NCBI RefSeq assembly: GCF_001558695.1
Contig: NZ_LNTU01000023.1
Location: forward strand, 124,001-188,000
Direction: 5' to 3'
DNA length: 64,000 nt
Source: Paramesorhizobium deserti
GTDB lineage: Bacteria; Pseudomonadota; Alphaproteobacteria; Rhizobiales; Rhizobiaceae
Positions within the stretch are counted from its first letter, which is position 1. Each line of letters begins with the position of its first letter. The position numbers and the translations under genes are program-made. Shown here in pieces: positions 54,950-60,602 of this stretch. Below the pieces are notes generated by a model. That model was not told where the DNA came from, made no database searches, and worked only from the letters and a program-made list of their open reading frames with translations.

Positions 54950-55179
54950 CTTTTCCCGCCCTTTCGGCATTCCGTTATTTGCATCCGCATGGCGGATTGC
55001 GGCGCCGGAATCAAGCTCCGGACGCATCTTGCCGGACGCCTTGTCGGCCCTGGTCTCAAACCGGAGCGGATAAAGCTGCCCAGCAGAAGACCCGGCTCTC
55101 GGCAATCGGCTGTTGTTGTATGGGTGTTTGTTAAGGATGGCGAGGTGAACTGCCTAGGACAATTAGTTGCGGTTGCATA

Positions 55180-55195
55180 ATGTTATAGATGACAT
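55180..55195. promoter_or_regulatory. Possible operator before the RND efflux operon
   Basis: ATGTTA-N4-TGACAT is a near-palindrome (5 of 6 positions in the arms) 36 bases before the first adaptor gene. No regulator gene lies next to the operon in this window, so the cognate protein is unknown. The 282-base spacer from 54950 to 55231 shows no gene. Confidence 0.3.
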
Positions 55196-55231
55196 ATCAC
55201 TTCCGCTTGGGAAGAGGTTCGGGGGCCCGGA

Positions 55232-56365
55232 ATGGCAGATAGGGAGAGAGGCGGCGATACATGGCGGCGGCATCCGGCGGTCGGCTGGCGGCGATTTGCC
55301 GGTATTGCAATCGTTGCGCTCTCGGTGTCCGCCTGCGACCGGCATGCTGAAACGGCACAAGGCGAGGACAGCGCCGCGGTTGCCGTCGAAACCGTCAGAT
55401 ATTCCGAATTCGCACCTGAAATCACACTGACCGGGGCCATTGCCGCGCGTACTCTCACCAATCTCTCCTTCCGTGTTGGCGGTCAGGTCACCGAGCGCAA
55501 CGCCGATGTCGGGCAGCATGTAACGCCTAGAGAAGTGCTGGCGCGGCTCGATCCCGCGGAGCAGCAGGTCAATGTCCGCACGGCGCAAGCCTCGCTCGAT
55601 GCGGCGAAATCGCAGCTCGTGCAGGCATCCTCCACATTCGATCGCCAGAAGACGCTTCTTGCCCAGGGCTTCACCACGCGCCGGCAGTATGACGAGGCAC
55701 AGGAAGCGCAGCGCACAGCGCAGAGCGCCCTGACCGTGGCGGAAAGCCAGCTCGCCAATGCGCAGGACCAGCTTACATTCACGCAGTTACGGGCCGGCGT
55801 TTCGGGGATCATAACGGCGCGCAATATCGAGGTGGGCCAGGTCGTACAGCCGACGGAGACGGCCTTTACCATCGCCGAGGACGGACCACGCGACGCCGTC
55901 TTCGACGTTCAGGAAACGCTGGTCGCCAATGCCAAGACCGATCCCGTCGTCATGGCGATTGCGCTTCTTTCCAATCCGCAGGTCAAGGCAGAGGGACGGG
56001 TGCGCGAAATCTCACCCGTGGTCGATCCGGCCACCGGCACGGTTCGCGTCAAGGTCAGCATCGCCGACACGCCGCCGCAGATGACGCTCGGTGCGACGGT
56101 GACAGGCTCCATGCGGATGCAGCCGCAACGCGCCGCGATCCTGCCGTGGAGCGCACTCACCTCGGACGGGGGGCGGCCCGCGGTCTGGCTGGTCGAAGGG
56201 GATACGGATGTGGTCGCGCTCACCCCGGTGAAGGTGCTCTCCTATGAGCGCGAGCGCGTCGTCATCGCGAGCGGGCTCGATGAAGGACAGCGGGTGGTCA
56301 CCAAGGGCGCGCAATTGCTGCGCCCCGGCGAGGTGGTCGATATCGTCGAGGAGGTGGGGCGGTGA
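55232..56365 (+). CDS. RND efflux adaptor (membrane fusion) lipoprotein, first copy
   Basis: The 377-residue periplasmic adaptor has a lipobox (LSVSACDR, Cys35), a split biotinyl-lipoyl domain (LSFRVGGQVTERNADVGQHV, then LRAGVSGIITARNIEVGQVV) around an alpha-helical hairpin (about 110-175), then beta-barrel and membrane-proximal domains. It links the inner-membrane pump to an outer-membrane channel. It overlaps the second adaptor by 4 bases (GTGA). Two adaptors before one pump gene is less common than one. Confidence 0.9.
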   Translation: MADRERGGDTWRRHPAVGWRRFAGIAIVALSVSACDRHAETAQGEDSAAVAVETVRYSEFAPEITLTGAIAARTLTNLSFRVGGQVTERNADVGQHVTPREVLARLDPAEQQVNVRTAQASLDAAKSQLVQASSTFDRQKTLLAQGFTTRRQYDEAQEAQRTAQSALTVAESQLANAQDQLTFTQLRAGVSGIITARNIEVGQVVQPTETAFTIAEDGPRDAVFDVQETLVANAKTDPVVMAIALLSNPQVKAEGRVREISPVVDPATGTVRVKVSIADTPPQMTLGATVTGSMRMQPQRAAILPWSALTSDGGRPAVWLVEGDTDVVALTPVKVLSYERERVVIASGLDEGQRVVTKGAQLLRPGEVVDIVEEVGR

Positions 56366-57528
56366 GGTCTTTAGAGCATTTCACATTCAAGTGGAAATGC
56401 TGGCGGGACAACGCCCCCCTCTGGGCGGCAGGCCAGAGGGGGGCGCCTAGCGATTCCGTTAAAATAATTGCTGCCTTGGGACTCACCGCATTGCTTTCTG
56501 TCGCCGGCTGCAGCGAGCAGCATGAGCAACGGACCGAACCCGTTCGCCCGGTGCTTTACATGAAGGCGGAGCCGCAGGAGCAGCGCACCTACGGGTTCGT
56601 CGGAACGGTCGAGCCGCGCTACAGCACGAGCCTCGCTTTCCGCGTGCTCGGGCGCATCGTCAGCCGGGAGGTCGATGTCGGCGACCTCGTGAAGAAGGGC
56701 GAGACGGTAGCAGCCATCGATCCGACCGCGCTCGACCTCGCCGTTCAGGCGGCGCGCGCCGATCTGGCAAGCGCGGAGGCGCAGTTCGCCAACGCCTCGG
56801 CAAGCGAGGAGCGTCAGCGCGCGCTTCTCGATCAGGGCAACATATCCGAAGCCATCTATGACGCCGCCCTGCAGGGAAGGGATGCCGCGAGCGCCGGTGT
56901 TGAAAAGGCGCAGGCTGCGCTGAGCAAGGCCGAGGACCAGCGCGGCTATGCGCAGTTGCGGTCGGATTTCGACGGCGTGGTGTCGCAGGTCGCAGCCCAA
57001 GTGGGACAGGTGGTCGCCGCCGGACAGACCGTGATGACGATCGCGCGATCCGATATCCGGGAAGCGGTGGTCGATATTCCCGACAGCATGATCGGTGATA
57101 TCTCGGTCGGCATGCCCTTCGATGTCGTGCTGCAATCGGCGCCTGCCATCCGGGCGAGCGGGCAGGTTCGCGAGATCGCACCGCAATCGGATGCCGCGAC
57201 GCGAACCAGGCGTGTCCGCATCACGCTGGATGATCCACAATCCGCCTTCCGGCTGGGTGCGACGATCACGGCGACGCGACAGGTGCCGACGCAGCCTTCG
57301 GTAGTGCTGCCGATTTCGGCGCTTCTGGAAGAGAACGGCAAGACATCGGTGTGGGTCGTCGATCCCGCCACGCAGACGGTCGGCACGCAGGAGGTGAATA
57401 TCGTGGCGCGCAATGCGCATAGCTTCACCGCCGGCAATATCGCGGACGGCACCTACGTGGTGACGGCGGGCGTCCATAGCCTCGAAGAGGGGCAGAAGGT
57501 CAAATTTCAGGAAGGAGCAGAGCGTTGA
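56362..57528 (+). CDS. RND efflux adaptor lipoprotein, second copy, with in-frame repeat insertion
   Basis: The 388-residue adaptor is related to the upstream copy: lipoyl halves LAFRVLGRIVSREVDVGDLV and LRSDFDGVVSQVAAQVGQVV flank a helical hairpin (about 125-200). It starts with GTG overlapping the previous stop. Residues 4-32 are encoded by two palindromic repeats (56371-56457). Without them the N-terminus would read MRS then VKIIAALGLTALLSVAGC, a perfect lipoprotein signal; with them the lipobox Cys moves to residue 50 behind a 32-residue polar stretch. The frame is kept. Whether the signal still works, or an internal TTG (56476) is used, is open. Confidence 0.85.
   Translation: MRSLEHFTFKWKCWRDNAPLWAAGQRGAPSDSVKIIAALGLTALLSVAGCSEQHEQRTEPVRPVLYMKAEPQEQRTYGFVGTVEPRYSTSLAFRVLGRIVSREVDVGDLVKKGETVAAIDPTALDLAVQAARADLASAEAQFANASASEERQRALLDQGNISEAIYDAALQGRDAASAGVEKAQAALSKAEDQRGYAQLRSDFDGVVSQVAAQVGQVVAAGQTVMTIARSDIREAVVDIPDSMIGDISVGMPFDVVLQSAPAIRASGQVREIAPQSDAATRTRRVRITLDDPQSAFRLGATITATRQVPTQPSVVLPISALLEENGKTSVWVVDPATQTVGTQEVNIVARNAHSFTAGNIADGTYVVTAGVHSLEEGQKVKFQEGAER
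56371..56457 (+). repeat. 87-base palindromic element inserted in frame in the adaptor gene
   Basis: Two inverted repeats lie side by side: AGCATTTCAC (56375-56384) with GTGGAAATGCT (56391-56401), one base bulged, and a perfect 13-base pair CGCCCCCCTCTGG (56412-56424) with CCAGAGGGGGGCG (56433-56445). Such elements are normally intergenic in rhizobia. Here they lie wholly inside a reading frame, length divisible by three, no stop codon. Confidence 0.75.
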
Positions 57529-60500
57529 AAGGCTTCAATCTCTCCGACTGGGCTTTGAACCATCGCTCGCTCGTCTGGTATTTCATGCTGGTGTTCCTGA
57601 TTGCCGGCGTGTTTTCCTATATTGATCTCGGGCGTGAGGAAGATCCGGCCTTCACCATCAAGACCATGCTGGTGCAGGCCAATTGGCCGGGCGCCTCGGT
57701 CGAGGAAACGATCAATCAGGTCACCGATCGCATCGAGAAGAAGCTGGAAGAACTCGACAATCTCGATTTCACCCGCAGCGTCACGACGGCCGGCAAGACG
57801 ATCGTCTTCGTCAATCTGAAGGCCACGACCAGGGGACGCGATGTCGAAGCGACGTGGGTGCGTGTGCGCAACATGCTGAACGATATCAGGACGTCTTTTC
57901 CGGAAAGCGTCTTCGGGCCGTTCTTCAACGATCGCTTCGGCGATGTCTATGGCAATATCTATGCCTTCACCGCCGATGGGCTGACGCAGCGCCAATTGCG
58001 CGATTATGTCGAAGATGTCCGCACGAAAATCCTGACTGTTCCCAATGCCGGCAAGGTGGATCTCGTCGGCGCTCAGGATGAGGCCATCTATCTGGAGTTC
58101 TCGACAAGGCAGCTCGCCGCGCTCGGCCTCGACGAGCAGGCCGTCATGCAGAGCCTTCAGGACCAGAACGCCATCACGCCATCGGGCGTCATCGAAGCAG
58201 GACCGGAACGGGTGAGCGTGCGGGTGAACGGCCAGTTCACCTCTGAAAACAGCCTGCGCGCCGTAAACTTGAGGGTGAACAACCGCTTCTTCCGGCTAAC
58301 GGATGTCGCGAACATCACCCGCGGCTATGTCGATCCGCCGACGTCGATCTTCCGCGTCAACGGCCAGGATGCGATCGGTCTCGCCATCGGCATGAAGCCG
58401 AACGGCAATCTCCTGGAATTCGGCGAAGCGCTGAAGGAGATGATGGACAAGGTGGTGGCGGAACTGCCTGTTGGTGTCGGCGTGCATCTGGTGGCGGATC
58501 AGCCTGTCGTCGTCGAGGAAGCGGTCTCCGGCTTCACCCGCGCCCTGTTCGAGGCCGTCGCCATCGTGCTTGCCGTGAGCTTCATCAGCCTGGGGTTCCG
58601 GGCGGGCTTCGTGGTGTCGCTTTCCATCCCGCTGGTGCTCGCCATCACATTCCTCACGATGAGCTATCTCGATATCTCGCTGCAGCGCGTTTCGCTCGGC
58701 GCGCTCATCATCGCGCTGGGGCTTCTGGTAGACGATGCGATGATCGCCGTGGAGATGATGGTAGCGCGGCTCGAGATGGGCGATCCCCTCAATAAAGCCG
58801 CGACCTATGTCTACACCCACACGGCGTTCCCCATGCTGACGGGAACGCTGGTGACGATCGCCGGCTTCATGCCGATTGGCCTCAACAACAGCCAGGCGGG
58901 CGAATACACCTTCACCCTCTTCGTCGTCATCGCCGTGTCGCTGATCGTATCCTGGATCGTGGCGGTCCTTTTCGCACCTTTGCTCGGCGTGACGTTCCTG
59001 CCGGCGAGGATGCGCCATCATGAGGAAAAGCCGCGTCGCTTCTTCCTGGCGTTTTCGCGCGTGCTGCGCCTGGCGGTGCGCCATCACTGGCTGACCATCA
59101 TCGCGACGGTGCTCGCCTTTGCGCTCTCCGTCTTCGGGCTACGCTTCATCGAGCAGCAGTTCTTTCCGTCCTCCGACAGGCCGGAGCTCGTCATCGACTG
59201 GAAACTGCCGGAGAGTAGCTCGATCGAAGAGACGAAGGCGCAGATGGAACGTTTCGAGAAGACGATGCTCGCGGGTAATCCCGATATCGAGCACTGGAGC
59301 ACCTATATCGGTCAGGGGGCGGTGCGCTTCGTGCTCACCTTCGACGTTCAGCCGGCCAATCCTTATTTCGGCCAGATGATCATCGTCACCAGGAATATCG
59401 AGGCGCGCAACCGGCTGAAGGCGGCATTCGAGAAGGTGCTGAGGCAGGATTTCGTCGGCACGGACACCTATGTGAAGTTCCTGGAACTCGGGCCTCCGGT
59501 CGGACGGCCGGTGCAATACCGCATCAGCGGCCCCGATATACAGGCCCTGCGCGGCTTTTCGCAGGAGCTGGCGGGGATCATGAGCGCCAATCCGCATCTC
59601 GGCATCGTCACCTATGACTGGAACGAGCCGGCCCGCATGGTCAAGGTCGATGTGATGCAGGACAAGGCCCGCCAGCTCGGCATCACATCCAAGGCGATCG
59701 CCACGACGCTCAACAGCGTGGTGGGAGGCGCCACCATCACACAGGTGCGCGACGCGACCTATCTGATCAATGTGATTGCGCGGGCGGATGCGAAGGAGAG
59801 GGGTTCGATAGAGACCCTGCGCAATCTCCAGATCGCGACCGCCGCCGGCGAATCCGTACCGCTCGCGGCGATCACCAATTTCCGTTACGAGCTGGAGCAG
59901 CCGGTCGTCTGGCGGCGCGACCGCATGCCGACCATTACGGTGGCGGCCGGCATCAATGACGGGGTGATGCCGATGACGATCGTCGAGGAACTCGCGCCCG
60001 ATATCCGCACCTTCGCCGACAAGCTGCCCGCCGGCTATTCCATCGAGACGGCGGGTACGGTGGAGGAAAGCGGCAAGAGCCAGGGGCCGATCATCGCCGT
60101 CGTGCCGCTGATGCTGTTCGTGATGGCGACGATCCTGATGATTCAGCTGCAGAGCTTCCAACGGCTTTTCCTGGTAGTGGCCGTGGCGCCGCTGGGGCTG
60201 ATCGGTGTCGTGGCAGCGCTGGTGCCGAGCGGTGCGCCGCTCGGCTTCGTCGCCATTCTCGGCGTCCTGGCGCTGATCGGCATCCTGATCCGCAATTCGG
60301 TGATCCTCATCGTGCAGGTGGAGGATCTGATCAAGGAAGGGGTGCACCCCTGGGATGCGGTGATCGAGGCCACCCAGCACCGCATGCGGCCGATCGCGCT
60401 GACAGCTGCGGCGGCGAGCCTTGCGCTGATCCCGATCGCGCGCGAAGTGTTCTGGGGGCCGATGGCCTATGCCATGATGGGCGGCATCATCGCCGGCACG

Positions 60501-60602
60501 GCGATCACGCTGCTCTTCCTTCCCGCGCTCTACGTCGCGTGGTTCCGCGTCAAGGAGCCGGAGCGGAGCGCGGAAGAACGTGCGTCGACGGTGGCGGGAT
60601 AG
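57525..60602 (+). CDS. RND-family multidrug efflux pump
   Basis: The 1025-residue inner-membrane pump has the RND layout: helix 1 near 12-33, a large periplasmic loop, helices 2-6 (about 335-490), a second loop and helices 8-12 (about 860-1010). The helix 4 proton-relay motif is present (LLVDDAMIAVEMM, about residue 400). It exports hydrophobic or amphipathic compounds by proton antiport. TTG 57525 overlaps the adaptor stop (TTGA), with GGAAGGAG 7-8 bases upstream, so this rare start is well supported. No outer-membrane channel gene follows. Confidence 0.93.
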   Translation: MKGFNLSDWALNHRSLVWYFMLVFLIAGVFSYIDLGREEDPAFTIKTMLVQANWPGASVEETINQVTDRIEKKLEELDNLDFTRSVTTAGKTIVFVNLKATTRGRDVEATWVRVRNMLNDIRTSFPESVFGPFFNDRFGDVYGNIYAFTADGLTQRQLRDYVEDVRTKILTVPNAGKVDLVGAQDEAIYLEFSTRQLAALGLDEQAVMQSLQDQNAITPSGVIEAGPERVSVRVNGQFTSENSLRAVNLRVNNRFFRLTDVANITRGYVDPPTSIFRVNGQDAIGLAIGMKPNGNLLEFGEALKEMMDKVVAELPVGVGVHLVADQPVVVEEAVSGFTRALFEAVAIVLAVSFISLGFRAGFVVSLSIPLVLAITFLTMSYLDISLQRVSLGALIIALGLLVDDAMIAVEMMVARLEMGDPLNKAATYVYTHTAFPMLTGTLVTIAGFMPIGLNNSQAGEYTFTLFVVIAVSLIVSWIVAVLFAPLLGVTFLPARMRHHEEKPRRFFLAFSRVLRLAVRHHWLTIIATVLAFALSVFGLRFIEQQFFPSSDRPELVIDWKLPESSSIEETKAQMERFEKTMLAGNPDIEHWSTYIGQGAVRFVLTFDVQPANPYFGQMIIVTRNIEARNRLKAAFEKVLRQDFVGTDTYVKFLELGPPVGRPVQYRISGPDIQALRGFSQELAGIMSANPHLGIVTYDWNEPARMVKVDVMQDKARQLGITSKAIATTLNSVVGGATITQVRDATYLINVIARADAKERGSIETLRNLQIATAAGESVPLAAITNFRYELEQPVVWRRDRMPTITVAAGINDGVMPMTIVEELAPDIRTFADKLPAGYSIETAGTVEESGKSQGPIIAVVPLMLFVMATILMIQLQSFQRLFLVVAVAPLGLIGVVAALVPSGAPLGFVAILGVLALIGILIRNSVILIVQVEDLIKEGVHPWDAVIEATQHRMRPIALTAAAASLALIPIAREVFWGPMAYAMMGGIIAGTAITLLFLPALYVAWFRVKEPERSAEERASTVAG

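Follow-up and report, generated by a model that had tools for sequence, protein, structure and literature searches.

A repeat of a multi-copy palindromic family has very probably inserted just after the start codon of an adaptor gene in the window (the whole 64-kb stretch of DNA that was analysed), where it would be translated as an in-frame extension of the N terminus. The position and frame of the element, its membership in the family, its recurrence and its absence in relatives were observed directly. The gene belongs to an RND efflux operon, identified with Pfam and, for gene B, also with NCBIfam, in which adaptor A is followed by adaptor B and then by pump C. Gene B carries the insert, between its start codon and its lipoprotein signal. 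The features are as follows.

55232..56365, + strand: gene A, first RND periplasmic adaptor (Pfam HlyD_D23 and HlyD_3)
56349..56354, + strand: Shine-Dalgarno sequence AGGAGG, 7 nt before GTG 56362 (read from the sequence)
56362..57528, + strand: gene B, second RND adaptor, 388 amino acids, GTG start (open reading frame; Pfam; NCBIfam RND_mfp, 4.7e-74)
56370..56463, + strand: composite palindromic element, short form with a 30-nt core (ends common to other genomic copies)
56375..56401 (about), + strand: left hairpin of the element, 8-bp arms and a bulged extension (RNA fold; left-end match)
56412..56445, + strand: central palindrome, perfect 13-bp arms and an 8-nt loop, holding the 30-nt core at 56414-56443 (inverted-repeat search)
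56449..56463, + strand: right tail AGCGATTCCGTTAAA, encoding Val-Lys at the boundary of the n-region and h-region of the signal (match without mismatches; consensus of other tails)
56464..56511, + strand: hydrophobic core and lipobox V-A-G-C, with the Cys codon at 56509-56511
57525..60602, + strand: gene C, RND pump of the AcrB family (Pfam ACR_tran, 4.3e-152)

An earlier note on this DNA had described 56371-56457 as an in-frame, stop-free stretch made of two inverted repeats. Reading from GTG 56362 confirmed the frame and the absence of stops. Both inverted repeats are present, but from comparison with other copies they are read as parts of one composite element spanning at least 56370-56463 rather than as two separate repeats. 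In the window, the central palindrome was the sole perfect inverted repeat whose arms reach 13 nt or more around a loop of 3-12 nt; among 12 shuffled controls searched for the same class, one gave two such repeats and the other 11 gave none. A core pattern derived from the genomic copies matched twice at the window element, once per strand, against 0.01 matches expected. The left end, starting at 56370 (TTTAGAGC..., also TTTAGAGCATTTC...), was found once without mismatches against 0 expected, using a pattern built from the window copy together with other copies. The perfect match of the tail is weak by itself, with 0.40 chance matches expected at up to two mismatches. In other copies the order was left part, GGCGGGACA, core and GCGATTCC tail, although the end motifs gave no orientation for 30 of the 67 copies considered below. 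Some copies begin with TTAGAGC and have GCTCTAA near the end; no target-site duplication was established. Because the codons GTT AAA (Val-Lys) belong to the element, within a tail common to other copies, the clean MRS|VKII junction that had been proposed does not mark the true edge. In an Rfam scan of 55000-58000 no family attained its gathering score; the single match was to a miRNA model, below threshold (E 0.17).

The core was abundant in the window's genome, with 109 forward and 102 reverse matches at up to three mismatches (one full copy may give two matches), compared with one on each strand for a reversed control. Among 61 genomes, the six members of the genus had 50-189 matches per strand and the other 55 had 0-38. 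Copies were sampled from 100 of the 211 places, namely those listed, and from places found in an earlier search. In the 50 stretches fetched, 67 paired copies were found, the window's included, and these represent a sample of the family. Their core sizes were discrete: a 30-nt core was found in 21 copies, one of them the window's; 35 copies had cores of 151-160 nt and eight of 228-274 nt, and the other three had cores of 41, 66 and 110 nt. A plasmid search with another copy of the family as query returned relatives in 175 records, mainly from Sinorhizobium (69) and Rhizobium (68). Of the 40 records listed, for which the gene table was incomplete, 39 had no annotated gene at the best place, and the remaining one was unannotated. 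The element is read as a composite palindromic repeat, non-autonomous and belonging to a multi-copy family. A signal region that evolves fast and is palindromic by chance, with no insertion at all, would fit the varying signal length of adaptor B in insert-free loci, but it was rejected on the core and left-end matches against expectation and on the inverted-repeat shuffles; already refuted by the 211 family matches in the genome, it deserves practically no credence.

Whether the extra sequence is an insertion or an old extension was judged on A-B operon loci fetched by homology. Of 76 loci, 73 had both A and B, giving 74 with the window; L132-L134, distant matches without A, were left out. 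The insert was absent in 71 of the 74. The distance from the start codon to the match with the mature protein was 17-38 codons in these 71 loci compared with 50, 87 and 97 codons in the three carriers, which are the window, P. leguminum ORS 1419 (L062) and B. endophytica CGMCC 1.15082 (L063). The adaptors of the latter two carried a larger nested form of the insert, in frame and without stops. Within the same genus group, Mesorhizobium sp. RMAD-H1, P. phragmitis and P. salinisoli had the adaptor without the insert. The earlier note had set homologues with a similar N-terminal extension and no repeat, named beforehand, against an insertion; there were none among the 71. The adaptor insert is accordingly best read, from these alignments, as the insertion that the note had claimed. 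A single clean gain in one carrier clade was rejected on the operon tree (AU test, p-AU 0.0137). A wider concatenated tree also rejected the carrier clade (p 0.0212), but it was poorly resolved, paired RMAD-H1 with B. endophytica, perhaps via recombination, and was set aside for the history of gain and loss. Since the carriers do not form a clade, either losses occurred or there was more than one insertion at the same junction. In the B. endophytica adaptor, matching extra sequence was seen by eye in both arms of the nested palindrome, as if copied onto each other.

The start of gene B was well conserved. The TGA stop of gene A and the start of gene B overlapped by 4 nt (-4) in 74/74 loci; the AGGAGG before gene B was identical in RMAD-H1 and P. 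salinisoli and weaker in the other three loci of the genus. A translation start after the repeat, with the hairpins acting on the mRNA only, would make the element extragenic in effect, and a passage in PMC3733652 suggests this for many N-terminal REPs of other species. In-frame ATG codons do lie inside the element of the P. leguminum and B. endophytica adaptors, and an ATG or GTG lies in those of the secretins described below, so a later start is possible in those genes. In the window, by contrast, no in-frame ATG or GTG follows GTG 56362 before the Cys codon. Downstream of the insert and ahead of the Cys, TTG 56476 and TTG 56491 are the only in-frame start candidates; both are within the hydrophobic core, and a start at either would leave no charged n-region and has no Shine-Dalgarno sequence visible by eye. 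Together with the upstream start at the same overlap in every locus, this makes an extragenic element very unlikely for the window copy, and a start downstream of the repeat, which had been named as a possible objection, found no support in the sequence. Separately, in the P. leguminum adaptor the inner right arm GAGGGGGAGATG resembles a ribosome-binding site followed by an in-frame ATG; some copies of the element might bring along a start codon of their own.

The signal of the window adaptor was judged by simple rules rather than by a trained predictor. With the lipobox VAGC, Ser at +2, 15 uncharged residues leading up to the Cys and an n-region of net charge +3, it shows the charged n-region, the hydrophobic stretch and the lipobox ending in Cys of a Sec/signal-peptidase-II lipoprotein, and it is consistent with a working lipoprotein signal. 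The type of lipobox and the +2 Ser were the same as in three insert-free orthologues of the genus. The earlier note had suggested that the signal was displaced and the sorting of the adaptor altered. A shift of the adaptor to another membrane, or loss of its lipidation, might follow from the n-region of 34-83 residues in the carriers compared with 5-13 in the three insert-free orthologues, and long n-regions can slow export. However, each of the three carriers retains a lipobox with Ser at +2, a stretch of 12-15 uncharged residues ahead of the Cys and an n-region of net positive charge, and the insert sits upstream of the Cys that bears the lipid. Altered sorting is therefore highly improbable. 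The further suggestion that a first adaptor copy makes the insert tolerable is not supported either: adaptor A is a partner of adaptor B and no spare copy, because the two are about 33% identical and A precedes B in 74/74 loci.

On the preferred reading, a copy of the repeat would have inserted just downstream of the start codon of adaptor B, and translation from GTG 56362, whose context is described above, would run through the element in frame. The extra residues would lengthen the n-region only and, following the lipoprotein pathway, would be removed with the signal peptide upon lipidation of the Cys. Because the insert lies before the lipobox, these residues should be discarded with the signal, which would explain why they are tolerated. 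Copies would shrink and grow at the palindromic arms, presumably by hairpin slippage during replication, and selection would retain only changes that preserve the frame; the keeping of the frame itself is seen in the comparisons below.

The repeat type had been taken as normally confined to intergenic DNA. This holds for much of the sample, since 61 of the 67 copies were not placed in any domain-verified gene, but not for all of it: four copies lie in frame well inside three genes, and two lie before signal peptides, one in a secretin gene and one in the adaptor. The carriers other than the adaptor are as follows.

L169:3712-5934, - strand: PBP1C; element at residues 484-505, inside the Pfam Transpeptidase match 305-570
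L202:1155-5312, + strand: CobN; two elements, at residues 238-289 and 858-867, inside the CobN match 174-1362
L208:1036-3972, - strand: nitrate-reductase/formate-dehydrogenase-like protein; element at residues 583-634, between Molybdopterin and Molydop_binding
L184:1978-3738, + strand: secretin with pilus N-domain; element at residues 23-73, before the signal peptide

Altogether, 29 of the 67 copies were covered by an open frame, long or short. Twenty-five of these and the window copy were followed to open reading frames, and three copies without a start codon before the element were left out. When the 38 read-through frames were scanned with Pfam, nine had a domain; the 29 without one were dropped as gene evidence. 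In the QueG-like, HisZ-like, FlgA-like, BPD_transp_1 and AAA_28 frames the domain follows the element, and these were counted as an element upstream of a gene. The remaining four frames with domains hold five in-gene copies. The six gene copies, adaptor included, are a lower bound for the sample of 67. As a side observation, the frame was open from the element into the FlgA-, QueG-, HisZ-like and AAA_28 genes (L203:1456-2139, - strand; L179:1857-3311, + strand; L173:9606-11084, - strand; L189:1425-2249, - strand). Start calls beside such repeats, as in the FlgA-, QueG- and HisZ-like genes, are prone to false N-terminal extensions in automatic annotation.

The in-gene copies also bear on a role of the hairpins in tuning the expression of gene B or C, through translation rate or mRNA stability, for which the element would be kept. 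The RNA fold of 56340-56480 was strong (-65.7 kcal/mol, z -4.25), with a stability that none of 200 shuffles attained, and the element sits just after a coupled start codon, as such a role would have it. Yet the carriers are scattered and their inserts differ in size, and tuning is less likely for family copies deep in CobN, PBP1C and the nitrate-reductase-like gene, so we consider it unlikely that the element is kept for this purpose. The presence of the same family in frame in other genes of the genome and genus instead suggests that the adaptor insert, read as a translated insertion, is one case of a wider process like that of the Rickettsia palindromic elements (RPEs).

Frame keeping was compared at the four internal sites across six genomes of the genus. 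All 24 gaps (24/24) were 0 mod 3 and free of stops, with sizes of 33-234 nt; they are not 24 independent trials, because the six genomes share ancestry. The reading frame used at one site may differ between species. For CobN and PBP1C, the stops that the search marked in some sister matches lay before the ATG of the gene or at the C-terminal end, outside the inserts. As a control, copies outside the six gene copies were examined. The short core was open in all six frames in 20/20 copies (120/120 frames; 19 with cores of 30 nt and one of 41), whereas for the 151-160 form with 30 nt on each side only 40/192 frames were open and 23/32 cores were not a multiple of three. Because the short core is open in every frame, openness by itself carries little weight for the short window copy, but it says much for the set of gene copies.

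Empty and scarred sites were found as well. The PBP1C site was empty in 29/29 measured outgroup loci from 28 genomes, with gaps of 6-24 nt. Among 29 CobN outgroup loci, of which 10 at site 1 and 8 at site 2 were not measurable, inserts of at least 100 nt were present in 6/19 at site 1 and 5/21 at site 2, several with the same peptides, and 40/40 measured gaps were 0 mod 3. In P. salinisoli, CobN site 1 and the nitrate-reductase-like site held only short remnants matching the element arms, which are interpreted as in-frame deletion scars. At CobN site 2 of RMAD-H1 and B. endophytica (L217, L219), an unrelated repeat family was observed in frame. That unrelated repeats occupy these in-frame positions in RMAD-H1, B. 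endophytica and P. phragmitis suggests either hot spots for insertion or replacement. In other genera of the family, CobN (L302, L303, L306, L311) carried inserts that keep the frame, reach 462 nt and encode related peptides, and on account of these inserts the process is probably family-wide.

The secretin repeated the layout of the adaptor, with start codon, element and signal peptide in this order, in the window's genome, P. leguminum and B. endophytica. No element was found before the signal in the secretins of RMAD-H1 and P. salinisoli, and in P. phragmitis (L253) an apparently different palindrome was noted by eye at that place. The secretin elements hold an in-frame ATG or GTG (in the window's genome, a GTG at the element's end), which makes the secretin the weaker of the two pre-signal cases. 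In both genes the right terminus of the element falls on the n/h boundary, to which it contributes a Lys. When the right end was aligned against 80 signal regions (74 adaptor loci and 6 secretins), five of the six carriers ranked 1-5, their element ends aligning well with the Lys and the first hydrophobic residues, and the window adaptor ranked 73. Owing to this rank, an exapted boundary is proposed for the five carriers, and for the window copy only the Lys-bearing tail. The right end of the window element may reach about 56480. Such an end, inside the hydrophobic core, was attractive by eye, as most differences are transitions, but at its identity rank of 73 of 80 it is not claimed.

Taken more broadly, one rhizobial family of nested palindromes could be a standing source of new protein sequence in free-living hosts, entering the same permissive sites of core genes repeatedly, being resized by multiples of three or exchanged for an unrelated family of repeats, and, at signal peptides, having its right terminus taken over as the n/h boundary with the Lys and the first hydrophobic residues. 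We put this forward tentatively, with somewhat less than even confidence. A genus with genomes of 3.7-5.6 Mb carries such elements in cobN, pbpC and a nitrate-reductase-like gene as well as before secretin and RND adaptor signals, and the sequenced species offer filled alleles at all these sites and empty or scarred alleles at several. With both kinds of allele at hand, the spread of the repeat, the tolerant sites of the proteins and a possible usefulness of the added residues can be tested with wild sequences.

Protein-coding palindromes are often tied to reduced intracellular genomes, and a 2002 paper reportedly, going by its title, treats them as peculiar to Rickettsia. The earlier note had likened the insert to the RPEs that invade coding genes, and the in-frame, stop-free element in adaptor B bears the likeness out. 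The RPEs and the protein-coding palindromes of Wolbachia are, like the element here, palindromic repeats of about 100-150 bp set in frame in conserved genes. The present copy numbers show a multi-copy palindromic unit, at least 94 nt long in the window, and the gene copies show in-frame, stop-free insertion in conserved protein genes. The organisms differ, and here the nested core is GC-rich and the hosts are free-living. The analogy appears right in mechanism; membership in the RPEs is not claimed. As far as the available text of PMC3767692 goes, RPEs lie in open reading frames and different RPE groups occur near one site, both as here, and PBP1C, a carrier in the present set, is among the RPE-carrying genes of R. 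japonica. Text from PMC2229807 describes an RPE insert in Gmk of R. conorii that is translated in an active protein.

Other repeat classes share single features with the element. GTAG/CGTC REPs are found, according to an excerpt of PMC3733652, inside open reading frames of several species, some near N termini, as here. In contrast to these, the present unit is longer and nested and shows no GTAG/CGTC tag at its consensus ends (by eye) or in its core pattern. ERIC/RU elements are fused in frame in enterobacteria, including to an HlyD-like fragment, according to PMC2759123 and PMC2229807. They too are MITE-like repeats read as protein inside genes, but host and element are different, and the HlyD-like sequence there is a fragment of 145 aa, in contrast to the full-length adaptor preserved here. 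The intergenic mosaic palindromes of rhizobia, namely RIME, Sm-repeats and ABC motifs (PMC2573895, in part), were compared by description only; they are likewise multi-copy palindromic mosaics of rhizobial intergenic DNA, and the difference here lies in the in-frame gene copies. No report of in-frame palindromes in rhizobia was found in the literature searched, which reached few of the subscription journals. The "palindromic element" of one rhizobial paper is, in the section available, a regulator site (PMC6280393). The class of protein-coding palindromes is already known, and the interesting part is the wider pattern across genes and species. Judged from these sequences, rhizobial bacteria that live freely appear to gain protein sequence from selfish repeats in much the way known from Rickettsia.
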